From: Verrucomicrobiaceae bacterium
GTDB lineage: Bacteria > Verrucomicrobiota > Verrucomicrobiia > Verrucomicrobiales > Verrucomicrobiaceae
Direction of reading: 5' to 3'
Assembly (NCBI GenBank): GCA_019694165.1
Contig: JAIBCL010000003.1
Span: forward strand, 1 to 64,000
Length of the DNA: 64,000 bases
This document shows positions 246 through 8,576 of this stretch, piece by piece. The position numbers and the translations under genes were made by a program. A model generated the notes under the pieces. It made no database searches. It saw nothing but the letters and a program-made list of their open reading frames with translations, and was not told the origin of the DNA. How positions within the stretch are numbered: the stretch's first letter is position 1; every line of letters starts with the position of its first letter.

Positions 246-851
246 TCAAAACTCCACCACACCACCGCCGCCGACGAGGAACATCTCCCAGTCGCGCACT
301 TCGTGCTGGTTCTTGATGAGTTCGCTCACGGGCATCTCGCGCGGTGCCTTCGGCTGGCGGAGCAGCGCGAGTCCGGCTTCGTGGGGAAGCTTGCTGCCTT
401 TGCGGCTGTTGATGCGCTTGTCGGCGAGCACGCAGTTTTCCCAGTTCGTTTTGCCGCCGCGCGAGAGCGGCACGATGTGATCGATGTTGCCCTCGTGCGG
501 ACGGAGTTTGCGACCGGTATACTGGCAGGTGCCGCCGTCTCGCTCCCAGATGGCTTTGGCGCAGAATTTCGGCCGGCGCTTTGGCACTTTGTCGAAGCGG
601 GCGAGCACGAGCACGGTGGGCACGCGAATGCGACGGCTCACAGTGCCGATGGAGTTGTCGCCCTCGCGCACGGGGAGCTGCACCCAGTCTTCCCAACGAA
701 CGGGCTGCATGTTGTCGTTGCCCATGATGTCGAGCGCTGTGGCTGCGCCGGTGGCCATCATGCTGAAGGCGTCGGCAGCGGTCTTCACGTCGATGGCCTG
801 CCAGTTCCGGTTGAGCACCAGAACGGTGGCTTTGTTCAGCACGTCGCTCAT
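246..851 (-). CDS. HNH endonuclease
   Basis: 201-residue HNH-family nuclease of the common stand-alone bacterial type (COG1403-like). The N-terminal part (about 1-100) is the family's usual beta-rich region. The nuclease motif follows: Cys109 in CQYTG, Asp124-His125 in the IDH segment, then Asn139 and Cys140 in NWENC and Asn148 in KRINSRKG. These are the residues expected for a metal-dependent beta-beta-alpha-metal fold acting on DNA or RNA. The start at 851 is the first in-frame ATG. It lies downstream of the Ro60/TROVE gene on the same strand, separated by about 450 bp that include a probable terminator, so it may be transcribed separately. Whether it cuts nucleic acid as part of the Ro/tRNA locus is inference from position only. 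Confidence 0.85.
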   Translation of the reverse strand: MSDVLNKATVLVLNRNWQAIDVKTAADAFSMMATGAATALDIMGNDNMQPVRWEDWVQLPVREGDNSIGTVSRRIRVPTVLVLARFDKVPKRRPKFCAKAIWERDGGTCQYTGRKLRPHEGNIDHIVPLSRGGKTNWENCVLADKRINSRKGSKLPHEAGLALLRQPKAPREMPVSELIKNQHEVRDWEMFLVGGGGVVEF

Positions 852-1221
852 AAGATCTGTCTCCTTTTTGAAAAACTGAGGCCTGTCCCGGAAGGTGGAG
901 GCGTCAGCGGTGTTCGTTCTCTGATGACGGGCCGGAAGGTTGGTTAAGCGGCCGATTTGGACAACTGAAATCTTTGCGGAGTGTCGCGCTCAGTAGTCGA
1001 GCGCGACACCGACACCTCGCGCGCGGCTTCGCTTCACGCGGCTTTGGGCTCGGGCGAGCAGGGCGGCGTGCGGGCGACGCACGGGAAGGATGGCGCACGA
1101 GTTCAGCACGGCGTGCGGCATGGTGGGGCTCACATTGCGCGGTGGGCGGAAGTGAGCGGGAAGGGGACGAAGAAGATTCATTTGGAAAAAGGTGTGTGGG
1201 TGTTGAGGGAAAAAAGAGAAA
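852..1221. other. Gene-free GC-rich spacer between HNH and TROVE genes; possible ncRNA site
   Basis: No coding frame here looks like a protein. The stretch is GC-rich with many short complementary segments (for example around 990-1060 and 1085-1115). In other bacteria Y RNAs are often encoded next to the Ro gene, so this spacer is one place to look for a Y-like RNA. I could not identify a Y RNA stem or a tRNA-mimic module in it. Confidence 0.3.
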
Positions 1222-1254
1222 GGCGCAGCCAGTTTCCGAAGAACTGACTGCGCC
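1206..1254 (-). terminator. Rho-independent terminator of the TROVE gene
   Basis: On the minus strand, 52 nt after the TROVE stop, GGCGCAGTCAGTT (from 1254) pairs with AACTGGCTGCGCC across a CTTCGGA-type loop, with one mismatch. A pyrimidine-rich tail, TTTCTCTTTTTT, follows at 1221-1206. The tight UUCG-type loop and U-rich tail are typical of an intrinsic terminator. Confidence 0.8.
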
Positions 1255-1305
1255 CGTTGAGTGAGCGGAACAAGACGCCGCGCGTGACGTTGTGGTCACC
1301 TCGCT

Positions 1306-2733
1306 TCACAGCGGCACGGCCTCGATCTGGCGGATCAGCGCGCCTGGATCGGCGTCGAGCTGCTTCAGCGTGTCCAGAGTCTTGTCGGAGAAACCGGCCA
1401 GGCAGTAAACCTGGCGCTCTGGGAACTGAAGCGTGCCGTAGCCTTTCAGGTCGAAGCTGAAGACCTTTGGATCGCAACCATGCTGCGCCTTCCACTTCTG
1501 AAAGGTGGCGACTGGCGATGTGTGGCCGATCCAGCCCTGCATGTCGGACAGGATGATCACGCGATCATACGCGCGGCCGGCCGTGTGGAAGATGCAGTGA
1601 AAATCCGTGCCCGCCGCCTGAGCCTGGCTTTGCAGCCACTTCGCGAGCGAGAGTGTGGAGTCGTACTTGTTCAGCGTGACGTATTTCGCGCCGTCGCTGA
1701 AAAGCATGACATCACACACGCCGGCCTTTGCCAGTGTGGCGGCAAAGAGCGAGCCGATCTGCAGCGGACGACCAACCATGGAGCCGGAGCCATCCAGCGC
1801 GATGAGCGTGCGGCCCGGGAACGATGGGACGTTCGCGAGCGACTTCTCCACGGCCTCGCTGAGTGCAGCGAGCACATCGCCCGCGCGAGGCAGGCTGGTG
1901 GACTGCACGGCATCGAGCGCGGTGAGGAAGCGGAACGGCAGCACGAGCGAGCGGCGGATGGGTTTTTCATCCACCAGCATCTCGAGCGCCGCATCCAGCA
2001 CCTCGGGCGCGCTTTCGAGCACGTTGCGCAGGTTACGCAGCAAAGCGAAGTAGCCGATCTTCCGCGAGCGGATCAGTTCCGACCATGCCTCGCGTTTGAG
2101 GTCGGTCAGTTCATCATCGCTCTGCGCCGCAGCACCTGCCTGCGTGAGTTTGGTTTCCCACGTTTCAGCAGGCGCGAGCGTGCCTTTGACCAGCTTGCTC
2201 AGTGCTTCGGTCGCCGGAGGGTGAACGAGGTTCACCACATCGACGAGCGAGAGATCGGCACGCGCCTTGCGATACTTCGAGAGCTGATGCTCATCGAAGC
2301 GCGCCAGCGCACGACCGAGGCCTTTCTTCAGCGAGTTCGGAATGACCTTGCCGTGTGTGCCGCGATAGCACGCGAGGATCTCGATCGCATCATCCGGGCG
2401 ATGCACGACACGGTCGTAAAACCGCGCCGTCCAGTCCGCGCCTTTGACGCTGTTCGCCAGCTCGGCGGCGGTGAGGTGCGTGATGCTCCTCATGCCAGCC
2501 TCTTTGCGCGCGTAGATCGCGGCCTTCGCCACGAAACGCTTGTCGCTCATGCCGGCGATGAGCTGCTTCAATCGCGCAGCCGTCGCATCCGCGCTGCGAT
2601 AGAAATCATCCTGCAGCGTGGAGGTGAGCATGATGGAAGCCAGCTCGAGCTTTGGAGTTTCGACAAACGCCTCGCCACCCGCGAGGTTGAGCGTGTCAGC
2701 GCGAGGACGTTTCTTGAGGAAGTTGAATTTCAT
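1306..2733 (-). CDS. rsr: Ro60-like TROVE domain ribonucleoprotein (Rsr)
   Basis: 475-residue TROVE/vWA protein, the bacterial counterpart of the Ro60 autoantigen. The N-terminal two thirds form the helical TROVE ring that in known homologues binds misfolded RNA ends and Y RNA. Recognisable stretches include ASIMLTSTLQDDFYRS near residue 30, the IYARKEAGMRSITHL segment near 85 and the LVDVVNLVHP region. The C-terminal third is a von Willebrand A domain with an intact MIDAS motif, DGSGS, at about residues 314-318. I prefer the start at 2733 (MKFNFLKKRP) over an upstream ATG at 2778, because homologues begin close to this point. Known bacterial Ro proteins work with Y RNAs that can mimic tRNA, and with PNPase or RtcB. 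Here the neighbour is a large tRNA-like array on the same strand instead of rtcBA. A terminator follows at 1206-1254. Confidence 0.93.
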   Translation of the reverse strand: MKFNFLKKRPRADTLNLAGGEAFVETPKLELASIMLTSTLQDDFYRSADATAARLKQLIAGMSDKRFVAKAAIYARKEAGMRSITHLTAAELANSVKGADWTARFYDRVVHRPDDAIEILACYRGTHGKVIPNSLKKGLGRALARFDEHQLSKYRKARADLSLVDVVNLVHPPATEALSKLVKGTLAPAETWETKLTQAGAAAQSDDELTDLKREAWSELIRSRKIGYFALLRNLRNVLESAPEVLDAALEMLVDEKPIRRSLVLPFRFLTALDAVQSTSLPRAGDVLAALSEAVEKSLANVPSFPGRTLIALDGSGSMVGRPLQIGSLFAATLAKAGVCDVMLFSDGAKYVTLNKYDSTLSLAKWLQSQAQAAGTDFHCIFHTAGRAYDRVIILSDMQGWIGHTSPVATFQKWKAQHGCDPKVFSFDLKGYGTLQFPERQVYCLAGFSDKTLDTLKQLDADPGALIRQIEAVPL

Positions 2734-2896
2734 GTGTGTTGTTGGGTGGGTTGGTTGTTGGGAGGAAAAAGTAGTCATGCGCTTCAGCGCGTGACCGTGT
2801 GCTTCGGCTTCAGCGAGACCTTCTCGGTCTCGCGCGTCCGTGCGGGCTAAAGCCCTACACTACTTTTGAATTGGGGAGAAAAGTGACCGGAGAAAT

Positions 2897-2953
2897 CCAG
2901 CCGCAGGCACACCCGCCCGCCGCCAGAACGCTCTACCACTGAGCTATTGGCCC
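2897..2953 (-). pseudogene. tRNA 5'-half fragment next to the TROVE gene
   Basis: On the minus strand GGGCCAA-TA-GCTC-AGTGGTA-GAGC (2953-2930) is a canonical acceptor 5' strand and D-arm with the normal GG. The expected anticodon arm, T-arm and 3' acceptor strand do not follow; the sequence becomes GC-rich and unrelated. It is the array member closest to the TROVE start, about 160 nt upstream. Confidence 0.6.
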
Positions 2954-2961
2954 ACGTTTGC

Positions 2962-3033
2962 AGACCATGCCGGATTCGAACCGGCGACCGTTTCGTTAAC
3001 AGCGAAGTAACTCGAGTCTCACTGCCCCAAAGT
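2962..3033 (-). pseudogene. tRNA-Asn(GUU)-like 3' half with shared leader block
   Basis: The anticodon arm TTCG-CTGTTAA-CGAA (3006-2992) gives GUU, and the T-arm GCCGG-TTCGAAT-CCGGC (2985-2969) is fully canonical. No D-arm is present. In its place is a block, GGGGCAGTGAGACTCGAG followed by TTACTTCG (to about 3033), that recurs at three other places in this region. No encoded CCA. Confidence 0.6.
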
Positions 3034-3100
3034 TGTGGCATGGGCTTTTCAGCCCGTGCGTGTTTGAAAAGAATCGCGGAGAAAAGCAGACAGGCTCTAA

Positions 3101-3211
3101 CTGAGGAGCCGGGACTCGAACCCGGATCTGGCTTTCGCCGAACCCCTGCTCATGGGCACCGCACTTCAGTTTGTCGTGTTGGAGCGAAGAAATCCTGTCT
3201 TCACTGCCGCG
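3101..3211 (-). pseudogene. tRNA-like element (GCG-type loop) with shared leader block
   Basis: The T-arm CCGGG-TTCGAGT-CCCGG is canonical. The acceptor ends CTGA (near 3169) and TCAG (near 3101) pair partly. The best anticodon arm is GGTT-CGGCGAA-AGCC (loop reading GCG), with U33 missing. The leader-like block GCGGCAGTGAAGACAGG plus ATTTCTTCG lies upstream at about 3211-3183. No CCA end is encoded. Confidence 0.5.
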
Positions 3212-3301
3212 AAATGGAATGACCAGGCGAGCTGTCGCATCGCCGGATCGAAAAGGGAAAAGAACCGGGGAGGAAAACCGGCAAGGGGTTTCATCCGACG
3301 A

Positions 3302-3361
3302 GCGGATGACGGGATCCGAACCCGCGATGACCACGAAGTAACCCTCGCCTCGCTGCCCCGG
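3302..3361 (-). pseudogene. tRNA T-arm fragment with shared leader block
   Basis: The T-arm GCGGG-TTCGGAT-CCCGT (3325-3309) and a 3' strand CATCCGC are visible, but no anticodon arm could be placed. The leader block GGGGCAGCGAGGCGAGG plus GTTACTTCG (3359-3333) runs directly into it. Confidence 0.45.
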
Positions 3362-3364
3362 AAA

Positions 3365-3415
3365 GGGTGAAAGGGAAAAGGCGCGCGGCATGACGAACGG
3401 GCCATGCCGCGCGCG
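3365..3415 (-). terminator. Strong hairpin after the 271-residue gene, probable terminator
   Basis: On the minus strand GCGCGCGGCATG (from about 3414) pairs over 12 bp with CATGCCGCGCGC around a loop of about 10 nt, followed by CTTTTCCCTTTC. It begins about 25 nt after the stop of the gene at 3439-4254. It would end that transcript or separate it from the degenerate tRNA elements and the TROVE gene. Confidence 0.6.
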
Positions 3416-3438
3416 AGTTTGAGTGAACGAGCTTTGAA

Positions 3439-4254
3439 TCAATCGAGGAACGCCAGATTGTTCCGAGATGGAGCGCGGTGTTCCTCATTGATCAGCACGC
3501 GATGCCAGTCGTGCAGCACGATCGTGGCGTGGTCCGGATGACGGACGGCGCCTCGTGCGAACACTCCTGGATTGCGACGCATCTGACGCCACACCAGCTT
3601 CTTGGCGGCAGGTTTGCGCTGGATCAGCTTTTCATACTGCTCCTGCGTGATGCCCTGCGGATGCTGGCGATTGACGTAAACGATCTCGCCGCCGGTGCGA
3701 TAGAGCTGCTCGACGTAGTGCGGCTTGCTGCCGCCTCCACGTGAGATGGGCTCCCAGCGCAGGATAAGCTTCGGATCGACGGCCAGGGATTGCTCCACTG
3801 GCACGAAGAACCACTCGCCCTGTCGGCGGAAAGCTGCGTTGCGACGTCGCGCTGCGTTCCGTGCGCTCAAGTGCTTGCGCGCCTGAGCTGCGCGGACGGG
3901 CTCCGGCTTCAGCGCTTCCTTTGCCTGCATCACGGTGGATGCCGAGCCAGGAATCGCCGCCACGAACCATTCACGTTCGTCGTGACCGCAAAGGAACTTG
4001 TCTTTGCGGGTGCCGTCGGCGCTCTTCGCGAGGAGGAGCAGGTGACGGTCTTCCTTCACCTTGTTCAGGAGGAGGAATTCGACGCTGGCGAGACTGGCGT
4101 CGTCGCCACGCAGTGAGAAGAACTGGCCGTCGCGGTCACGACCGATGTCGATCGCGTAGCCGCTGGCGGGTGCTCCCCAGATGCGTCGTGGTGGCTCCAC
4201 TCGGAGCCGCGCGCCGATGGATTCAAAAGCGCGTTCAAGATGTTCGAGTTTCAT
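3439..4254 (-). CDS. Conserved-looking hypothetical protein in the Ro/tRNA locus
   Basis: 271 residues starting MKLEHLERAFESIG. I do not recognise a named family. The N-terminal half is mixed alpha/beta with segments such as GYAIDIGRDRDGQFFSL and KDKFLCGHDEREWFVAAIPG (about residues 100-125) that look like a folded globular domain with conserved C, H, D and E residues. The middle (about 130-165) is strongly basic with RKHLSARNAARRRN and could bind RNA. There is no signal peptide or membrane helix. It is transcribed in the same direction as the TROVE gene and sits between two groups of tRNA-like elements, so a role with those RNAs is a reasonable guess, not a demonstrated one. Confidence 0.75.
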   Translation of the reverse strand: MKLEHLERAFESIGARLRVEPPRRIWGAPASGYAIDIGRDRDGQFFSLRGDDASLASVEFLLLNKVKEDRHLLLLAKSADGTRKDKFLCGHDEREWFVAAIPGSASTVMQAKEALKPEPVRAAQARKHLSARNAARRRNAAFRRQGEWFFVPVEQSLAVDPKLILRWEPISRGGGSKPHYVEQLYRTGGEIVYVNRQHPQGITQEQYEKLIQRKPAAKKLVWRQMRRNPGVFARGAVRHPDHATIVLHDWHRVLINEEHRAPSRNNLAFLD

Positions 4255-4461
4255 AATGGAATCTTCGAATCATCACCCGTGCCATTTGCTCCCGAAGGAG
4301 CGCGCTGGACGGGCGTGACAGCGATCTTCCAGATGATGTGACGCCAGCGGGAAGATGCGCTGGCTAGCTGGTGGGTTGCTTCATGATGTTGGGATGGTTT
4401 GAGTTTGAGAAAGGGAATTGCGGAGAAAGCCGGCCGGAGAAATGACGCGCCGGTTGCCCGG

Positions 4462-4553
4462 CGAGTCGGCGGGATTTGCACCCGCTACACCTTGGTTCTA
4501 GCAAGTGCTCTACTGAATGAGCTACGAAGTAACTCCGGCCTCACTGCCGCAAA
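4462..4553 (-). tRNA. tRNA-like gene, AGA anticodon (Ser-type), with shared leader block
   Basis: D-arm GCTC-ATTCAGTA-GAGC (4522-4507), anticodon arm CTTG-CTAGAAC-CAAG (4505-4491, reading AGA) and T-arm GCGGG-TGCAAAT-CCCGC (4485-4469) are all clear. The variable loop is short, unlike a normal serine tRNA. The 5' acceptor strand is displaced: the shared block GCGGCAGTGAGGCCGGAG plus TTACTTCG precedes the D-arm directly, and only GAGTT/GACTC can pair. No CCA end follows. The T-loop already has G at position 55, like the dense array. Confidence 0.6.
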
Positions 4554-4576
4554 GGGCTTGGGAAAAGGATCGCCAA

Positions 4577-5113
4577 TCAGTCGTCGCGCAGACGAGCGTA
4601 GAGGCGGCCATCGAAAGTTTGGCCATCGCGCCGATACTCTCGGCGGAGAAGCGGGGCCTCGACGATGAAACCGTTCTTCTCGAGCACGCGAGCCGATGCG
4701 CTGTTCAAGACGAAGACGTGCGCCGTGATGCGCTCGAGGGCGAACTCGCGAAAGCCGAGCCGCACGACATATTGCACCACCGCGCTCATGATGCCACGGC
4801 CCCAATACGGTTTCGCCAGCCAGTAGCCGATCTCCGACGCGTGCTCTCTGCCGCGCCCACCCGGAGCCAGCTCGATGGTGCCAATCATCCGCTCCGTCTC
4901 ATCGCGAATGGCCCAGATCGTCTCGCGACCATTTCGCGACACATCGTCAGCAACACTCGCGATCCACTCATCCGCCAGCGCGGGCGGATACGGATATGGC
5001 ACCACCCGCGTGTAGCGACTGAGTTCGCGATCCTGCGAATGCGAGATGATGTCATCGCGATCCGCAGGAGCGATGGGGCTGAGGTGAATGGTTGGTGTGA
5101 CTTGGTGGATCAT
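4577..5113 (-). CDS. GNAT acetyltransferase (RimJ/RimL-like), array-embedded
   Basis: 178 residues from MIHQVTPTIHLSP, an N-acetyltransferase using acetyl-CoA. Family signs are the EIGYWLAKPYWGRGIMSAVV segment (the Q/R-x-x-G-x-G/A acetyl-CoA loop, here WGRGIM) and the late ITAHVFVLNSASARVLEKNGF segment typical of RimJ/RimL-type enzymes, ending LYARLRDD. An upstream ATG at 5239 is in frame, but it would overlap the tRNA-Lys gene, so the start at 5113 is chosen. The usual substrates of this family are protein N-termini or amino groups of small molecules. Some GNATs acetylate aminoacyl-tRNA, which makes its place in a tRNA array interesting but proves nothing. Confidence 0.85.
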   Translation of the reverse strand: MIHQVTPTIHLSPIAPADRDDIISHSQDRELSRYTRVVPYPYPPALADEWIASVADDVSRNGRETIWAIRDETERMIGTIELAPGGRGREHASEIGYWLAKPYWGRGIMSAVVQYVVRLGFREFALERITAHVFVLNSASARVLEKNGFIVEAPLLRREYRRDGQTFDGRLYARLRDD

Positions 5114-5215
5114 GCTGATGTGAATGTGAGATCGAAAAGGATGGTGAGACGATAGCATGGAGCAAGGAGCGTGGAGGAGCTTCAGACTCCCATGCTCCTC
5201 GCGCCCTGCCGAAGC

Positions 5216-5290
5216 TGGTCGGCCCACAGGGACATGCACCCTGCTCCGCCGGTTAAAAGCCGGCTGCTTCGCTGTCTAAGCTTTGGGCCG
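5216..5290 (-). tRNA. tRNA-Lys(UUU), non-canonical elbow
   Basis: Acceptor CGGCCCA/TGGGCCG pairs perfectly. Discriminator A, encoded CCA at 5216-5218. The D-loop lacks GG. Anticodon arm GCCGG-CTTTTAA-CCGGC. T-arm CAGGG-TGCATGT-CCCTG has G55. It lies between the upstream GNAT gene and the divergent lipoprotein gene. Confidence 0.88.
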
Positions 5291-5341
5291 AAAAAGGGAA
5301 CTGACTTGTGTCGCGTGCGTGAACTGCATAGGCTTGCGCGC

Positions 5342-5707
5342 ATGAATGCCATTCGCTGGTCGCTGATGATGGTCGTGGCTCTGTTCACTGTCGGCTGCAC
5401 AAACCCAGAACTCGTTTACAAGGTGCCGCCTGCGAAAGACGGAACGGTTTTGGTGTTGGGCTGCGTGAAAACACAAGGACAGCAGCCCTGGCATCGAGGT
5501 CTCACGGCTAGGCGAGCCATCGAGCTGGCCGGAGGGTTTGACCTGTTTGCCAACCAGAGGCGAGTGCGGATCATCTCGCGCATCATCGAGCGTTCAGAAG
5601 GCGAGCCCATGACCGCGCGTCGTGTCGATCTTCGTGAAAATCATTCGGATTATCCGCTCCAGAATGGTGATGTTGTGATCGTCCAAGAGAAAGTGCCGGT
5701 CTTCTGA
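5342..5707 (+). CDS. Small SLBB-like lipoprotein
   Basis: 121 residues from the ATG at 5342. The start gives a lipoprotein signal, MNAIRWSLMMVVALFTVGC, with Cys19 as lipid site. The mature part resembles one SLBB/soluble-ligand-binding module of polysaccharide-export proteins: a GTVLVLGCVKTQG strand pair, TARRAIELAGGF, then VRIISR and a final YPLQNGDVVIV. Known SLBB proteins act at the outer membrane in capsule or exopolysaccharide export, but this copy stands alone with no Wza-type partner. It is the only plus-strand protein gene inside the array. An upstream in-frame ATG at 5171 would run through the tRNA-Lys gene and is rejected. Confidence 0.75.
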   Translation: MNAIRWSLMMVVALFTVGCTNPELVYKVPPAKDGTVLVLGCVKTQGQQPWHRGLTARRAIELAGGFDLFANQRRVRIISRIIERSEGEPMTARRVDLRENHSDYPLQNGDVVIVQEKVPVF

Positions 5708-5726
5708 TAATGGCGGTTAACTAATC

Positions 5727-5802
5727 TGGTGCTCATGGCAGGAGTCGCACCTGCACTGGCGACGCCCTCGACGTCGTGTCTCTGCTGTTGGGCTACGTGA
5801 GC
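5727..5802 (-). tRNA. tRNA-like, GAG anticodon (Leu-type), non-canonical elbow
   Basis: Acceptor GCTCACG/CATGAGC (6 of 7 pairs), A73 and encoded CCA at 5727-5729. D-loop AACAGCA. Anticodon arm CGACG-TCGAGGG-CGTCG reads GAG but lacks U33. T-arm GCAGG-TGCGACT-CCTGC. The variable loop is 5 nt, whereas a normal leucine tRNA has a long variable arm, so the amino acid identity is uncertain. Confidence 0.8.
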
Positions 5803-5812
5803 GAAATGAAAT

Positions 5813-5889
5813 TGGCAACCCTGGCGGGATTTGAACCCAGCGTTGTCCGCTTGAAAGGCGGGTGTCCTGTCCAATTAGACGACAGGGTC
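5813..5889 (-). tRNA. tRNA-Glu(UUC), canonical elbow
   Basis: Acceptor GACCCTG/CAGGGTT, G73 and encoded CCA at 5813-5815. The D-loop keeps GG (ATTGGAC). Anticodon arm CCGC-CTTTCAA-GCGG. T-loop TTCAAAT is canonical. It is one of only two dense-array members with a normal T-loop, and it also keeps the normal D-loop GG. Confidence 0.88.
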
Positions 5890-5906
5890 GTGTCTTGAGA
5901 AGAAAA

Positions 5907-6000
5907 TGGCGGAACCCCGAGGACATGCTCCTCATGCCGCGCTGTGGCGGCACGATCTCTTTAGCAAAGAGTCCCGGCTCGCTGGTCCGGTTGGCGTTCC
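5907..6000 (-). tRNA. tRNA-Ser(GCU), non-canonical T-loop
   Basis: 94 nt. Acceptor GGAACGC/GGGTTCC, G73 and encoded CCA at 5907-5909. Anticodon loop TTGCTAA. Long variable stem TGCCGC/GCGGCA as expected for a serine tRNA. T-arm TGAGG-AGCATGT-CCTCG with A54, G55 and U58. Confidence 0.85.
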
Positions 6001-6009
6001 TTGATGAAT

Positions 6010-6086
6010 TGGCACTCCCGGAAGGACTTTCGCCTCCAACCTCCGCGTTCGAAGCGCGGCGCTCTATACATTGAGCTACGGGAGCG
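6010..6086 (-). tRNA. tRNA-Arg(UCG), non-canonical elbow
   Basis: Acceptor GCTCCCG/CGGGAGT, G73 and CCA at 6010-6012. D-arm GCTC-AATGTATA-GAGC has no GG. Anticodon arm CCGCG-CTTCGAA-CGCGG. The T-loop CGAAAGT is the only one in the array without C56. Confidence 0.87.
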
Positions 6087-6091
6087 TGAAG

Positions 6092-6234
6092 TGGTGCCCC
6101 TGGCAGGAGTTGCGGCTCCTGCCGCCGTGCCAAGTCTGCTCCGCGCCTCACGACGACGCGCTATAGCGCTTTGGCGCTGCACCCGCACTAGACCGCTTCT
6201 GAGGCGGTTGTCTCTGCGTTGGACTACAAGGGCA
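6092..6234 (-). tRNA. tRNA-Leu(CAG) with large insertion in the variable region
   Basis: 143 nt. Acceptor TGCCCTT/AGGGGCA, A73 and CCA at 6092-6094. Anticodon arm ACCGC-CTCAGAA-GCGGT (6208-6192). The stretch between the anticodon stem and the T-arm (about 6123-6191) is 69 nt and contains the palindrome AGCGCTATAGCGC, related to the insertion in the member at 6938-7075. The T-arm GCAGG...CCTGC has a 10-nt loop, AGCCGCAACT. The gene may be inactivated or may carry a structured variable arm. Confidence 0.7.
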
Positions 6235-6240
6235 TGAAAA

Positions 6241-6315
6241 TTGCGGCCCTGGATGGGCTCGCACCATCAACTCTGCGCTTCAAAGGCGCATGCTCTCACA
6301 TTGAGCTACAGGTCT
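6241..6315 (-). tRNA. tRNA-Gln(UUG), non-canonical elbow, CAA end
   Basis: Acceptor AGACCTG/CAGGGCC has two mismatches. G73 is followed by CAA instead of CCA. D-arm GCTC-AATGTGA-GAGC, anticodon arm TGCGC-CTTTGAA-GCGCA and T-arm GATGG-TGCGAGC-CCATC are intact. Confidence 0.78.
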
Positions 6316-6319
6316 GAAT

Positions 6320-6420
6320 GAGCGAAGGGCTAAGGGTGAAGAGCAAAGAGGTCCGAAGACCGCGTCGCGTGCTTTTGCGATGCTTTGGACTCTTCGCTCT
6401 TTGCCCTCTGCTCTACGCTT
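6320..6420. repeat. Imperfect inverted-repeat element inside the array
   Basis: Arms of about 34 bp (6320-6354 starting GAGCGAAGGGCTAAGGG, and 6387-6420) are imperfectly complementary around a 32-nt centre. It interrupts the otherwise tight tRNA-Gln to tRNA-Met spacing and looks like a small palindromic insertion. Confidence 0.7.
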
Positions 6421-6426
6421 CTGAAT

Positions 6427-6502
6427 TGGTCGGTCCGGCTGGATTTGCACCAACATCTTCCGGGTTATGAGCCCGACGCTCTTGCTGTTAAGCTACAGAC
6501 CT
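6427..6502 (-). tRNA. tRNA with CAU anticodon (Met-type), non-canonical elbow
   Basis: Acceptor AGGTCTG/CGGACCG (A1-G72 mismatch), A73 and CCA at 6427-6429. D-loop AACAGCA. Anticodon arm CGGG-CTCATAA-CCCG. T-arm GTTGG-TGCAAAT-CCAGC. CAU could be elongator Met, or Ile after lysidine modification. Confidence 0.87.
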
Positions 6503-6511
6503 TCATTGAAA

Positions 6512-6589
6512 TGGCGCTTCCGCGAGGACTTGCACCTCGAGCCTCCACCTTCGCAGAGTGGCGTGCATGGACTCTTACACCTCGGAAGC
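6512..6589 (-). tRNA. tRNA-Arg(GCG), non-canonical elbow
   Basis: Perfect acceptor GCTTCCG/CGGAAGC, G73, CCA at 6512-6514. D-stem GTGT/GCAC. Anticodon arm CCACT-CTGCGAA-GGTGG. T-arm CGAGG-TGCAAGT-CCTCG. The spacer to the next gene is 4 nt. Confidence 0.88.
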
Positions 6590-6593
6590 AAAG

Positions 6594-6669
6594 TGGACGT
6601 GCGCCCCGGACTTGCACCGGGTAAGGTGGACTTGCGAACCACTGGCTCGGCTTCTTCGCCTTGCGCACG
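6594..6669 (-). tRNA. tRNA-Cys(GCA), non-canonical elbow
   Basis: Perfect acceptor CGTGCGC/GCGCACG with U73, the cysteine discriminator, and CCA at 6594-6596. The anticodon arm GTGG...CCAC holds the loop TTCGCAAGT with GCA. T-arm CCCGG-TGCAAGT-CCGGG. Confidence 0.84.
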
Positions 6670-6679
6670 ATGTTGAAAT

Positions 6680-6754
6680 TGGGCTTCCCAGCCGGTTCCG
6701 CCCCGGCTCCGTCTCCTTCACAAAGAGAAGTGCTGCTGTTACACCATGGAAAGC
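6680..6754 (-). tRNA. tRNA-His(GUG) with G-1, non-canonical T-loop
   Basis: The 5' end has the extra G (position -1, at 6754) opposite C73, the hallmark of histidine tRNA. Acceptor CTTTCCA/TGGGAAG, CCA at 6680-6682. D-loop AACAGCA. Anticodon arm TCTCT-TTGTGAA-GGAGA. T-arm GCCGG-GGCGGAA-CCGGC, with G54, G55 and G58. Confidence 0.88.
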
Positions 6755-6767
6755 ATCTTGATTGAAA

Positions 6768-6843
6768 TGGGGCCTCCGGTGGGTTTCGCACCCACATCGA
6801 CCTGTTTACAAAACAGGTGCCTTTCTGTGTCGGCCACGGAGGC
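6768..6843 (-). tRNA. tRNA-Thr(UGU), non-canonical elbow
   Basis: Perfect acceptor GCCTCCG/CGGAGGC, C73 (unusual for Thr) and CCA at 6768-6770. Anticodon arm CCTGT-TTTGTAA-ACAGG. T-arm GTGGG-TGCGAAA-CCCAC. The D-loop has no GG. Confidence 0.86.
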
Positions 6844-6849
6844 GTGAAA

Positions 6850-6923
6850 TGGTGCGGCCAGCCGGAGTTGCACCGGCATCTCAGCCTTGGCAAAGCAGTG
6901 TCCTGCTGTTGAACGATGGCCGC
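6850..6923 (-). tRNA. tRNA-Gly(GCC), non-canonical elbow
   Basis: Perfect acceptor GCGGCCA/TGGCCGC, A73 (Gly usually has U) and CCA at 6850-6852. D-arm GTTC-AACAGCA-GGAC. Anticodon arm CTGCT-TTGCCAA-GGCTG with one mismatch. T-arm GCCGG-TGCAACT-CCGGC. Confidence 0.85.
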
Positions 6924-6937
6924 ATTGAGTTGACGAA

Positions 6938-7075
6938 TGGTGCGCCATGCCGGTTCTGCCCCGGCGTGTCGAGTTTGGGTATGCGGCGCGATAGCGCTAC
7001 TCAAGGGGCGCGGAGCACTGACTGCATCAGCGCGGGAGCGCCAACACTCACATGTTGCTGTTACATCAATGGCGC
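6938..7075 (-). pseudogene. tRNA gene with about 64-nt insertion in the anticodon loop
   Basis: Perfect acceptor GCGCCAT/ATGGCGC, A73, CCA at 6938-6940. D-arm ATGT-AACAGCA-ACAT and T-arm GCCGG-GGCAGAA-CCGGC are intact. The anticodon stem TGAGT/ACTCG (7050-7046 and 6974-6970) encloses 71 nt instead of 7, including the AGCGCTATCGCGC core of a repeat also present in tRNA-Leu(CAG). The original anticodon is lost. The 3' loop bases and A73 would allow Val, which is otherwise lacking as an intact gene. Confidence 0.8.
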
Positions 7076-7079
7076 AAAC

Positions 7080-7154
7080 TGGCCGCCGGAGTTGGAATCG
7101 CGCCAACCTCTGCGGGTCTTCGGCCCGCCGCTCATCTGTCTGAGCCATCCGGCG
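7080..7154 (-). tRNA. tRNA-Phe(GAA), non-canonical elbow
   Basis: Perfect acceptor CGCCGGA/TCCGGCG, G73 (Phe usually has A) and CCA at 7080-7082. D-arm GCTC-AGACAGAT-GAGC. Anticodon arm GCGGG-CCGAAGA-CCCGC, with C at 33 instead of U. T-arm GTTGG-CGCGATT-CCAAC. Confidence 0.84.
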
Positions 7155-7165
7155 ATGAAAATGAA

Positions 7166-7239
7166 GAGTCCCTCCGCGTGGTGACGCTCCGCGGTCTGCC
7201 GGTTATCGACCGGCTGCTGTGCTGTTGAGCTACGGAGGA
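7166..7239 (-). tRNA. tRNA-Ile(GAU), non-canonical elbow, CTC end
   Basis: Acceptor TCCTCCG/CGGAGGG, A73, then CTC where CCA is expected. Anticodon arm GCCGG-TCGATAA-CCGGC. T-arm CGCGG-AGCGTCA-CCACG with one mismatch. The D-stem is shortened and the loop starts AACAGCA. Confidence 0.77.
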
Positions 7240-7245
7240 TGAAGA

Positions 7246-7318
7246 TGGCTCCCCAGCATGGACTTGCACCATGACGTTCGGTTTAACAGACCGACAGGCT
7301 CCTTTACCTCACCGGGGA
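7246..7318 (-). tRNA. tRNA-Asn(GUU), G55 T-loop
   Basis: Acceptor TCCCCGG/CTGGGGA, G73 as in asparagine tRNAs, CCA at 7246-7248. D-arm AGGT-AAAGGA-GCCT retains GG. Anticodon arm TCGGT-CTGTTAA-ACCGA. T-arm CATGG-TGCAAGT-CCATG. Confidence 0.88.
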
Positions 7319-7328
7319 AAACCAAAAG

Positions 7329-7410
7329 TAGTGCCCGCACCAGGATTTGAACCTGGAACCGCGGCCGTTAGAAGCGGCGCATGCAAAATGATCCGTTACA
7401 CCTTGCGGGC
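7329..7410 (-). tRNA. tRNA-Arg(UCU), canonical elbow, no encoded CCA
   Basis: Perfect acceptor GCCCGCA/TGCGGGC, A73, then CTA instead of CCA. D-loop with GG (AACGGATC). Anticodon arm GCCG-CTTCTAA-CGGC. T-arm CCAGG-TTCAAAT-CCTGG. It looks like an ordinary cellular tRNA sitting within the array. Confidence 0.88.
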
Positions 7411-7422
7411 GAAATAGGCTGA

Positions 7423-7950
7423 TCAATTACGCAACCGCGCGAAAATGAGATCGTCGTAGAACTTCCCGTCGCAGATCACGGCATCGCGCAGCCGCCCCTC
7501 CATCACGAACCCGGCTTTTTCGAGCACACGAATGGAACGCTCATTCAGTGAGTACACCTCGGTCTCCATGCGATGGAACTCCAGATCTCGGAGGACGCGA
7601 TCTGACACGAGGCGAACAGCTTCCGTCATGATGCCGCGACCCCAAAACGGCTCGGCGAGCCAATAACCGAAATGACAAGTGTGACTGCGCTCAAACTTCC
7701 CTGGTCGCAGTCCAAGTGTGCCGACAAGTTCACTGCGAATTTCGATGGCGAACACATGGCCGGCAGCACCGGACGCGCACTTCTCCAGAAATGATCGCCC
7801 GTCAGACCCGGTGTAAGGGTGCGGAAACCTTCCCATGAGAAAACGGGCAACGCTGGCGTTGTTGGCACAACGGACGAGATCGTCTAGATCGGACATCTGG
7901 ATCGGGCGAAGACGACCGCTGCACTGGGGAAGCGTGAGTTCAGAGAACAT
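7423..7950 (-). CDS. GNAT acetyltransferase (RimJ/RimL-like), second array-embedded copy
   Basis: 175 residues from MFSELTLPQCSGRLRP. It has the same architecture as the GNAT at 4577-5113: a HFGYWLAEPFWGRGIMTEAV acetyl-CoA loop (WGRGIM), then METEVYSLNERSIRVLEKAG and a FARLRN end that mirrors the other copy's LYARLRDD. The two are clearly related but diverged. I chose the start at 7950 over an upstream ATG at 7986, because homologues start near this point. The gene lies between tRNA-Arg(UCU), 12 nt away, and a tRNA remnant, on the same strand as the tRNAs, so it is probably on the array transcript. The substrate is unknown. Confidence 0.86.
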   Translation of the reverse strand: MFSELTLPQCSGRLRPIQMSDLDDLVRCANNASVARFLMGRFPHPYTGSDGRSFLEKCASGAAGHVFAIEIRSELVGTLGLRPGKFERSHTCHFGYWLAEPFWGRGIMTEAVRLVSDRVLRDLEFHRMETEVYSLNERSIRVLEKAGFVMEGRLRDAVICDGKFYDDLIFARLRN

Positions 7951-7998
7951 AATGCTGAAACGAAATGTGAGTCGCTCAATGCACATTAGGAGCGCTGA

Positions 7999-8058
7999 TG
8001 GTGCAATCGCCTTGGTTGCCGGCGATCGGGCGAAAGCCAGTGACTTGCGACACCTTGG
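7999..8058 (-). pseudogene. tRNA remnant upstream of the second GNAT gene
   Basis: It has a 3' end CGATTGC-A-CCA (CCA at 7999-8001), and its 5' side follows the usual TTTC spacer after tRNA-Pro. No matching 5' acceptor strand or anticodon arm could be drawn; only a CGCC/GGCG stem is visible. It is best read as a decayed array member. Confidence 0.35.
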
Positions 8059-8064
8059 TGAAAC

Positions 8065-8139
8065 TGGTCGGGCACCCCGGTTACGCTCCGGGTGTCTCTC
8101 GGTCCCAAGCCGAGCGGATTCCTATCTTCCTCGTGCCCG
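8065..8139 (-). tRNA. tRNA-Pro(UGG), non-canonical elbow
   Basis: Perfect acceptor CGGGCAC/GTGCCCG, A73, CCA at 8065-8067. Anticodon arm CTCGG-CTTGGGA-CCGAG. T-arm CCCGG-AGCGTAA-CCGGG with A54, G55 and U58. The D-arm is short. Confidence 0.85.
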
Positions 8140-8146
8140 ATGAAAT

Positions 8147-8222
8147 TGGCGGTCGCGACGGGTGATGCTCCCGCTCTCTCTTGCCTGACAAGCAAGCGAG
8201 TCTGCTGTTCCTCTTCACGACC
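8147..8222 (-). tRNA. tRNA-Asp(GUC), non-canonical elbow
   Basis: Acceptor GGTCGTG/CGCGACC, G73, CCA at 8147-8149. D-loop AACAGCA. Anticodon arm CTTGC-TTGTCAG-GCAAG. T-arm GCGGG-AGCATCA-CCCGT. Confidence 0.87.
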
Positions 8223-8228
8223 TGAAAA

Positions 8229-8313
8229 TGGTGCGGCGTCACGGTAACGCTCCGTGCCGGTCAGTGACTCCTGCTTTACAGGCAGGCGCGTGTCTTTAAC
8301 GCTCTACCGCCGC
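8229..8313 (-). tRNA. tRNA-Tyr(GUA), non-canonical elbow
   Basis: Acceptor GCGGCGG/ACGCCGC (one mismatch), A73, CCA at 8229-8231. Anticodon arm CCTGC-CTGTAAA-GCAGG. The extended variable arm with GTCA/TGAC is expected for bacterial tyrosine tRNA. T-arm CACGG-AGCGTTA-CCGTG. Confidence 0.86.
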
Positions 8314-8317
8314 GAAA

Positions 8318-8385
8318 TGGTGGACCCGGACGGTAATGCTCCGTCACCTGCTGCGTGCAACGCCATGCGCGACAGCTCAATTCAC
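8318..8385 (-). pseudogene. Degenerate tRNA, UGC-type loop (Ala-like)
   Basis: The 3' side is intact: T-arm GACGG-AGCATTA-CCGTC, CGGGTCC, A73 and CCA at 8318-8320. The anticodon loop is probably GTTGCAC (reading UGC) on a weak stem. The expected 5' acceptor strand GGACCCG is not found. With A73 this would fit alanine. Confidence 0.5.
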
Positions 8386-8387
8386 TG

Positions 8388-8452
8388 TGGTGCGGAGCAG
8401 ACTTTGCACAGTCGGAGGGCGGCAATACAGCCAAGCATCCCTTCTACACCGC
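8388..8452 (-). pseudogene. Degenerate tRNA-like gene, anticodon unclear
   Basis: Acceptor GCGGTGT/GCTCCGC (6 of 7), A73, CCA at 8388-8390. The T-arm is shortened to GACT-GTGCAA-AGTC. The D-arm is truncated and the anticodon arm GGC-TGTATT-GCC has a 6-nt loop. At 65 nt it is about 10 nt shorter than its neighbours. Confidence 0.5.
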
Positions 8453-8500
8453 GAGTGCGTTTGGCTGCTGACTCATGAGTCCACGCAGCCGCTGATAAAA

Positions 8501-8576
8501 TGGCACGGCGGGCGGGTAATGCTCCCACATCGACGCGGGTTTGGAGTCCGCCGCATTGCTTGTCTGCCACCGCCGT
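8501..8576 (-). tRNA. tRNA-Trp(CCA), non-canonical elbow
   Basis: Perfect acceptor ACGGCGG/CCGCCGT, G73 as in tryptophan tRNA, encoded CCA at 8501-8503. Anticodon arm GCGGA-CTCCAAA-CCCGC. T-arm GTGGG-AGCATTA-CCCGC. It is the first clear member in the direction of transcription. Confidence 0.86.

Follow-up and report, generated by a model that had tools for sequence, protein, structure and literature searches.

What is a gene for a Ro60/TROVE protein doing beside an array of tRNA genes? The question is raised by the window analysed here, which comprises the first 64,000 nucleotides of contig JAIBCL010000003.1 (assembly GCA_019694165.1) from a Verrucomicrobiaceae bacterium. On its minus strand there is a tRNA array of about 22 units for 18 amino acids (5220-8576), and the gene for a 490-residue TROVE protein (1306-2778) is located downstream. 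A first-pass annotation described a single minus-strand locus formed by an HNH gene, the TROVE gene, a 271-residue open reading frame (ORF), two GNAT genes and the tRNA-like genes. All of these are indeed on the minus strand, although an ORF resembling an SLBB-domain lipoprotein is present on the plus strand inside the array (within ORF 5171-5707). The reading that we prefer, at a probability of roughly one half, is that the locus is a composite of a reserve tRNA set with an elbow swap and a quality-control module made of Ro60 and Y RNAs.

Nearly all array tRNAs in the window carry A18 and G55 in place of G18 and U55, and they retain G19 and C56. The units were picked by structure, because the finder requires a cloverleaf with 7/4/5/5 stems, which the array units accordingly possess, plus U33. 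The window contains 12 strict cloverleaves of this kind, whereas 10 block-shuffled versions of it yield none. G55 is present in 11 of the 12, followed by C56 or, in Arg(TCG), by A56, and TTC is present in none. Most array units thus have A18/G55 instead of the canonical combination of G18-G19 with a TTC T-loop. The non-array tRNAs of the host genome, which cover all 20 amino acids, have TTC in each of the 42 examined. G55-C56 is also found in 294 of 350 cloverleaves from the TROVE loci of 22 relatives. When arrays at TROVE loci are pooled with arrays that have no full-length TROVE gene, there are 952 distinct array cloverleaves from Verrucomicrobiota, comprising 803 with G55-C56, 95 with TTC and 54 others.

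The two sides of the elbow change together. Positions 18 and 19 were compared in units with 7-base D-loops, where they are unambiguous in standard tRNAs (15 of 15 in the window's own genome have GG). There are 228 such units with A18/G55, 26 with G/U, 30 with G/G and none with A/U, an association whose Fisher p value of 1.4e-21 is indicative only, because the sequences are related and not independent. Both elbow states are seen in Glu, Met, Arg, Tyr, Asn, Pro and Ile units, and the D-loop nearly always matches. Several Arg(TCG) units are altered at positions 19 and 56 as well, with U19 accompanying A56, and positions 54 and 58 also covary (T/A 308, G/G 95 and A/T 65; n=540). These paired changes at 18/55, 19/56 and 54/58 show that the elbow contact has been rewritten and not lost. 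Seven cloverleaves from TROVE loci in the IMG/VR collection have yet another, third elbow type, in which GG is combined with CC at positions 55-56. The trained covariance model R1 failed as a score-based separator of array tRNAs from standard tRNAs, since the scores of the two overlap.

The discriminator base, the G3:U70 pair of tRNA-Ala and the G-1 of tRNA-His are identity elements for aminoacyl-tRNA synthetases. Among 540 units with G55, the discriminator base equals that of the same-isotype standard tRNA of the same genome in 448, compared with a mean of 221 and a maximum of 246 in 500 label shuffles. G3:U70 is present in all 23 Ala units and in only 5 of 517 units of other isotypes. For His, G-1 is found in 13 of 14 units with C73 and in none of 14 units with A73 or U73. 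Agreement at the discriminator base is similarly seen in arrays that have no full-length TROVE gene (245 of 284 units, with G3:U70 in 12 of 13 Ala units) and in the G55 arrays that three viral contigs carry (51 of 60). The persistence of these elements makes the array units look like chargeable tRNAs and not like debris.

There are four predicted Y RNA genes between the array and the TROVE gene (4554-2870, minus strand). In gene 4 (4417-4554) a D arm, an anticodon-like arm and a T arm are located within the Y stem; genes 3 (3264-3363), 2 (3073-3214) and 1 (2870-3032) each exhibit the motif and a covarying stem. The motif, GGCAG(T/C)GA...TTACTTC or TTTCTTC, occurs in four copies. Its 5' arm, NNNNGG-C-AG, pairs with a downstream CT-CC-NNNN to leave one bulged C, and the stem encloses a tRNA-like domain. 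A bulged C is a hallmark of Ro-binding stems, and here the closing stem that carries it lies beside the protein gene and shows compensatory changes. There are 84 distinct motif units when the window and the TROVE loci are pooled, of which 69 are from Verrucomicrobiota, 14 from IMG/VR and 1 from elsewhere. The downstream CTCC is present in 83 of them, and pairing over the four variable positions is perfect in 61 of these 83, as against only 9.2 perfect stems expected when 5' arms are swapped between units. Single-sequence folding gives z values of -3.36, 0.51, -0.96 and -1.65 for the four units, with slightly different ends. Since the folding energy is remarkable in only one of four, the case for Y RNAs rests on covariation and position. 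The Rfam model YrlA matches one of the four, gene 1, weakly (2927-2992; 33.7 bits, below the gathering score of 69). By their sequence signature the four units are taken to be Y RNA genes and putative partners of Ro60, and the first-pass view that the array stands in for a Y RNA unit was wrong, because Y RNA genes are present. The tRNA-like matches nearest to the TROVE gene (2960-3027 and 4466-4527) are parts of Y RNA genes and not array tRNAs.

The TROVE protein is recognised by PF05731 with 64.9 bits against a cut-off of 23, and its profile matches solved Ro60 and Rsr chains. Its C-terminal domain is vWA-like: DxSxS is the metal site of such domains, and DxSxSM and SDMQ are conserved, although Pfam vWA_Ro60 stays below its cut-off (19.1 vs 27.7). 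The Rsr equivalog NF041674 gives 14.3 bits against a cut-off of 900. Comparison of the protein, which belongs to clade A, with 142 relatives yields two clades, one of orthologues at about 54-84% identity and a second at about 30%. Among relatives in the order, all 22 orthologue loci have 5-18 ARAGORN tRNAs on the same strand, whereas none of 16 second-clade loci is at an array, and one has a lone tRNA. This second clade (L056-L071) is common in the order. A survey of named genomes kept 80 of 98 TROVE matches, and loci with at least 3 kb upstream were counted. At least three upstream tRNAs are present in 35 of 40 loci from Verrucomicrobiota and in 11 of 20 other cellular loci, whose carriers include Saprospiraceae and a metagenome-assembled genome of Acidobacteria. 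Brevifollis gellanilyticus and Chthoniobacter flavus, which can be cultured, are among the carriers of TROVE-linked arrays. Across the TROVE loci of two collections, 871 of 876 ARAGORN tRNAs share the strand of TROVE, which goes beyond chance.

The association is not reciprocal. The R1 search led to 30 genomes that have no full-length TROVE orthologue, all of which were fetched and were chosen for that lack. The Y motif is found in 16 of the 22 relatives' TROVE loci and is absent from the array strand in 28 arrays that lack full-length TROVE. Most of the TROVE-less arrays have the same ZnuA-array-HNH order, and one (G008) has a TROVE fragment. In genome G034 there are 40-residue remnants of TROVE with four remaining tRNA units, and in G100 a TROVE fragment with two weak units. 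Genome G001 is from the window's own genus: its HNH gene lies about 360 bases after tRNA-Lys, and the GNAT gene, the four Y RNAs, the 271-residue ORF (P271) and TROVE are all absent between them. In the window these elements form a block (GNAT1-Y-P271-Y-Y-Y-TROVE, 931-5217, minus strand) that is missing in G001. The Y-less arrays and this empty site indicate that Ro60 and the Y RNAs move as one block. They appear to come and go together, at the 3' end of an array that is itself more stable. The tRNA set with its recoded elbow is the older part, to which Ro60/Y is added as a plug-in module. At a threshold of 1e-14, R1 misses the arrays of G001 and G009 (both found at 1e-6) and those at the loci of G117 and G119, so that the numbers of arrays counted in genomes without TROVE are minimum values, and for this reason no weight is given to a Fisher comparison of arrays with and without TROVE (23 of 23 vs 28 of 119).

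One possibility is that the array RNAs are cargo of the Ro60 ring or Y-like scaffolds for it, as the first-pass annotation had suggested. The co-location, which is near-obligate in Verrucomicrobiota and seen in part of the other cellular loci, favours this explanation, as does the fact that the Y RNAs are themselves built on tRNA-like domains. Four tRNA-like units are in fact Y RNAs, but the array units lack the bulged-C, Ro-type stem of those genes, and both the arrays and their synthetase identity elements persist where Ro60 and the Y motif are missing. We therefore regard this explanation as unlikely.

There are 109 TROVE relatives on viral contigs, of which 80 were kept. In a FastTree analysis of 145 TROVE sequences, cellular groups are placed among those from viral contigs, and a weakly supported branch (67) sets Verrucomicrobiota apart. 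A viral example is L215, a 225-kb myovirus contig with 34 cloverleaves, of which 30 have G55-C56, covering 19 amino acids. It also has a Y motif and a TROVE gene, which is followed directly by HNH; beyond HNH there are genes for a T4-like portal, a baseplate wedge and a tail fibre. Other contigs (L207/L208 and L213), whose viral nature is putative, have G55 arrays. Records of 436 and 476 kb with a window-type TROVE carry terminase, and a 634-kb uncultured phage record has a TROVE protein at 49% identity. Loci of this kind are found throughout Verrucomicrobiota, and at least one large phage has one as well. In one viral array (L304), seven standard tRNAs (GG/TTC) are mixed with seven recoded ones (AG/GC).

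A further explanation is that the array derives from a phage tRNA cluster, is in decay and no longer serves a function. The placement of cellular TROVE copies among viral ones would fit, as would the two window units with inserts and the reduced array of G034. Clusters of this sort in Planctomycetes are called degenerate and possibly dispensable in the available text of PMC4807772. Decay does not predict that elbow changes are compensated and identity elements kept across a phylum, nor that A18/U55 is entirely missing among units with 7-base D-loops, and this explanation is likewise judged unlikely.

Another possibility is that the array serves as a decoy or sponge for anticodon nucleases. Anticodon arms and U33 are conserved, although the latter is not independent evidence because the finder required U33, and phages carry tRNAs against such nucleases according to the part of PMC10264068 consulted. 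However, a decoy needs no discriminator bases, no G3:U70 in Ala, no G-1 in His and no co-evolving elbow, all of which are kept, and we consider a decoy role quite improbable. That the array feeds aminoacyl-tRNAs to a non-ribosomal process, such as transfer by a GNAT-fold enzyme, is suggested by the GNAT genes inside some arrays but is very improbable, given that nearly all isotypes are present, that GNAT genes are found in 5 of 22 TROVE loci, and that both window GNATs resemble RimJ/RimL-type enzymes.

Our preferred reading, a reserve tRNA set joined by a Ro60-Y module, can be set out as follows. The older part would be an auxiliary, nearly full tRNA set in one co-directional array, and the younger part a Ro60 module comprising the TROVE protein, four Y RNAs, P271 and a GNAT. 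With cloverleaf, anticodons, G19-C56 and the bases read by synthetases all kept, the array tRNAs are probably charged and used in translation. In the accessible part of PMC4810234, the outer face G19-C56 is said to be used by the ribosome and RNase P, and pseudouridine 55 to be a universally conserved feature of the tRNA elbow. Retention of this outer face fits use on ordinary ribosomes, and array tRNAs with G55 would be unable to carry pseudouridine 55. A tRNA that lacks both G18-G19 and TPsiC can be active, as with tRNA-Pyl in the excerpted text of PMC7609411. Perhaps the array is induced as a reserve pool when standard tRNAs are depleted or damaged, be it by translation stress, phage-triggered tRNA nucleases or the toxins of competitors. 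The rewritten elbow might then allow these tRNAs to evade enzymes that recognise a standard T-loop or elbow; a contact-dependent inhibition (CDI) toxin that cuts a T-loop is described in the portion of PMC9086364 seen. The Ro60-Y particle may act in the same situation, in quality control or in decay or repair of tRNA-shaped RNA, with its tRNA-mimicking Y RNAs and not the array as the scaffold.

A more ambitious form of this proposal is that Verrucomicrobiota and some large phages possess a parallel set of tRNAs for nearly all amino acids, written in a second elbow code in which A18-G55 replaces G18-U55. Such a set would be compatible with the ordinary ribosome through the unchanged G19-C56 and invisible to enzymes that recognise a standard T-loop, for instance pseudouridine-55 synthase and nucleases that cut the T-loop. 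Translation would thereby survive destruction of the standard set, with Ro60/Y as the matching quality-control arm. This form is advanced tentatively and we would not yet bet on it.

Several observations weigh against the preferred reading of a reserve set joined by a Ro60 module. True G55 arrays are present at 28 of the 30 loci that lack full-length TROVE, as well as in G001 and G009, which makes at least 30 genomes, and array size does not differ significantly with and without TROVE (17.0 vs 14.4 units, p 0.098). Conversely, five Opitutaceae-type TROVE loci lack a clear array (L099, L101, L103, L107 and L111), some of them with the Y motif, and among the 68 IMG/VR TROVE loci whose upstream sequence spans 3 kb or more, there are fewer than three tRNAs in that sequence in 56 and at least three in 12. 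Arrays without Ro60 and Ro60 without a clear array mean that a joint mechanism is not forced. Outside Verrucomicrobiota, arrays adjoining TROVE have standard elbows, so that recoding is no part of Ro60 function and a recoded elbow is a trait separate from linkage to Ro60. Within the tRNAs, pair 1-72 agrees with the host's standard tRNA in part of the units (284 of 540, vs a shuffled mean of 184), so that this position is partly free, and some array units have inserts or look broken. The tie between Ro60 and the array that the first-pass annotation proposed therefore stands for the TROVE loci surveyed and not for the arrays. The neighbourhood comparison that it suggested gives strong co-occurrence at one locus, but arrays without TROVE are frequent and the array tRNAs number only 0-3 at a few TROVE loci of the Opitutaceae type, so that half of the outcome named there as refuting is observed.

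The number of array tRNAs detected in the window depends on the method: ARAGORN reports 8, Rfam reports 11 at the gathering score and more at a relaxed score, R1 finds about 20, and reading by eye together with Rfam gives about 22, from 8576 down to 5220. tRNAs for Ala and Val were not found among the window's array units. The structure finder and the covariance model both identify Trp(CCA) (8505-8576; T-loop AGCATTA, with G55), Asp(GTC) (8151-8222), Pro(TGG) (8069-8139), Asn(GTT) (7250-7318; T-loop TGCAAGT) and the last array unit, Lys(TTT) (5220-5290). ARAGORN and the structure finder agree on Tyr(GTA) (8233-8313; T-loop AGCGTTA), Gly(GCC) (6854-6923), Thr(TGT) (6772-6843) and Met(CAT) (6431-6502). 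Arg(GCG) (6516-6589) is found by Rfam and the structure finder, Gln(TTG) (6245-6315) by ARAGORN and the covariance model, and Leu(GAG) (5731-5802) by these two and Rfam. The structure finder also gives Arg(TCG) (6014-6085; the U19/A56 elbow variant, CGAAAGT, a type shared with relatives) and His(GTG) (6684-6753), whose G-1 and C73 were completed by reading the flank. The covariance model supplies Ile(GAT) (7170-7239), Phe(GAA) (7084-7154; also by relaxed Rfam) and Cys(GCA) (6599-6668; U73), the first two with anticodons assigned by reading and the third supported by reading. Two units retain the standard elbow, with TTC in the T-loop and GG in the D-loop, namely Arg(TCT) (7332-7410; Rfam) and Glu(TTC) (5817-5889; ARAGORN and Rfam).

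The remaining units are less regular. A Ser(GCT)-like unit (5908-6003) was recognised by reading only, as was a tRNA-like unit with an insert of about 70 nucleotides (6932-7070). A Leu(CAG)-like unit (6090-6233) has an enlarged variable region or insert and was assigned by reading and a partial R1 match (6166-6233). The insertions of about 70 nucleotides in the latter two contain GCGCTAT(A/C)GCGC palindromes. The insert of the former (unit 6940-7070) was considered as a repeat element, and this was ruled out by its single copy in the genome. A promoter-like site is present upstream of the array (9422-9394; consensus matches only), and strong terminator-like hairpins are located 3' of the P271 gene (3414-3381) and of the TROVE gene (1255-1221), both on the minus strand.

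The P271 gene (3439-4254, minus strand) encodes a 271-residue protein with no Pfam match whose family is linked to tRNA arrays and occurs also on viral contigs. There is a confident predicted structure (predicted local distance difference test score 87.5), yet a fold search of the PDB gave no convincing match (best Foldseek E value 0.39), and the best VIA-align Z score is 3.8, over residues 1-103. There is one match to an unnamed entry of a viral library (E 3.8e-6), and no sequence match in the PDB or in phage or plasmid collections. Seven full-length relatives are found on viral contigs (L303-L309), seven with tRNAs within about 6 kb, and a first-pass search that scores few candidates finds P271 in 2 of 387 genomes of the phylum, both times at arrays.

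Both GNAT genes, at about 4577-5113 and, as an accessory inside the array, at about 7423-7986 (minus strand), encode proteins resembling RimJ/RimL-type acetyltransferases. Their limited distribution among the relatives' TROVE loci does not support a role for them as core parts. The HNH endonuclease-like protein (246-851, minus strand) was considered as a specific partner, and this was ruled out: it is a neighbour that is widespread in the order, being present in 115 of 142 genomes, many of which lack TROVE. Short SLBB matches of about 26 amino acids in other loci proved to be the tRNA-Lys gene read in translation. There is no RtcB gene nearby: the genome's RtcB match is on another contig (C7) than the locus (C61), and rtcB does not stand beside the TROVE gene.

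There are several known systems with which the locus may be compared by their descriptions. The trn operon of Anabaena PCC 7120 has 26 tRNA genes under repression by TrcR; antibiotics that block translation induce it, and it promotes survival. Like the window array it is a second tRNA set besides a complete housekeeping set, but the part of PMC10272220 available for comparison does not mention Ro60 or Y RNA. The "degenerate tRNA gene clusters" of Planctomycetes are described as partly degraded and are odd-looking clusters from the same Planctomycetes-Verrucomicrobia-Chlamydiae superphylum. They differ, as far as the portion of PMC4807772 at hand describes them, in that TROVE is absent from the text and in that the oddness of the window array is a compensated elbow swap with identity elements kept. 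Phage tRNA clusters are multi-isotype and also occur in large phages, and the accessible text of PMC10264068 predicts that their tRNAs avoid anticodon nucleases and are thought to replace attacked tRNAs. The changes reported there are in the anticodon loop, whereas those of the window are in the D/T-loop elbow of nearly all isotypes. The Rsr-Y RNA-RtcB operon, in the excerpt of PMC7790460 used, shares a TROVE protein and Y RNAs with tRNA-like domains, but the window locus has a tRNA array instead of a nearby RtcB gene. The tRNA array units of Mycobacterium are similarly dense and exist besides housekeeping tRNAs, although neither elbow state nor a Ro60 link is reported in the parts of PMC5966550 and PMC12803027 seen.

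Searches of an open-licence library brought up no paper that links TROVE with tRNA arrays or reports A18/G55 sets. Arrays of tRNA genes, Ro60 and Y RNAs were each known separately; the concerted, chargeable-looking A18-G55 set, its co-location with Ro60 and Y RNAs, and the phage copy were not found in those searches. A natural, whole tRNA set with a swapped contact, on chromosomes and in phage, is a direct test of the purpose of the elbow code, and the array offers ready-made elbow-orthogonal tRNAs. Clusters that were dismissed as degenerate may be functional, and Ro60, whose role in bacteria is poorly known, gains a genomic context that is tied to tRNA supply.

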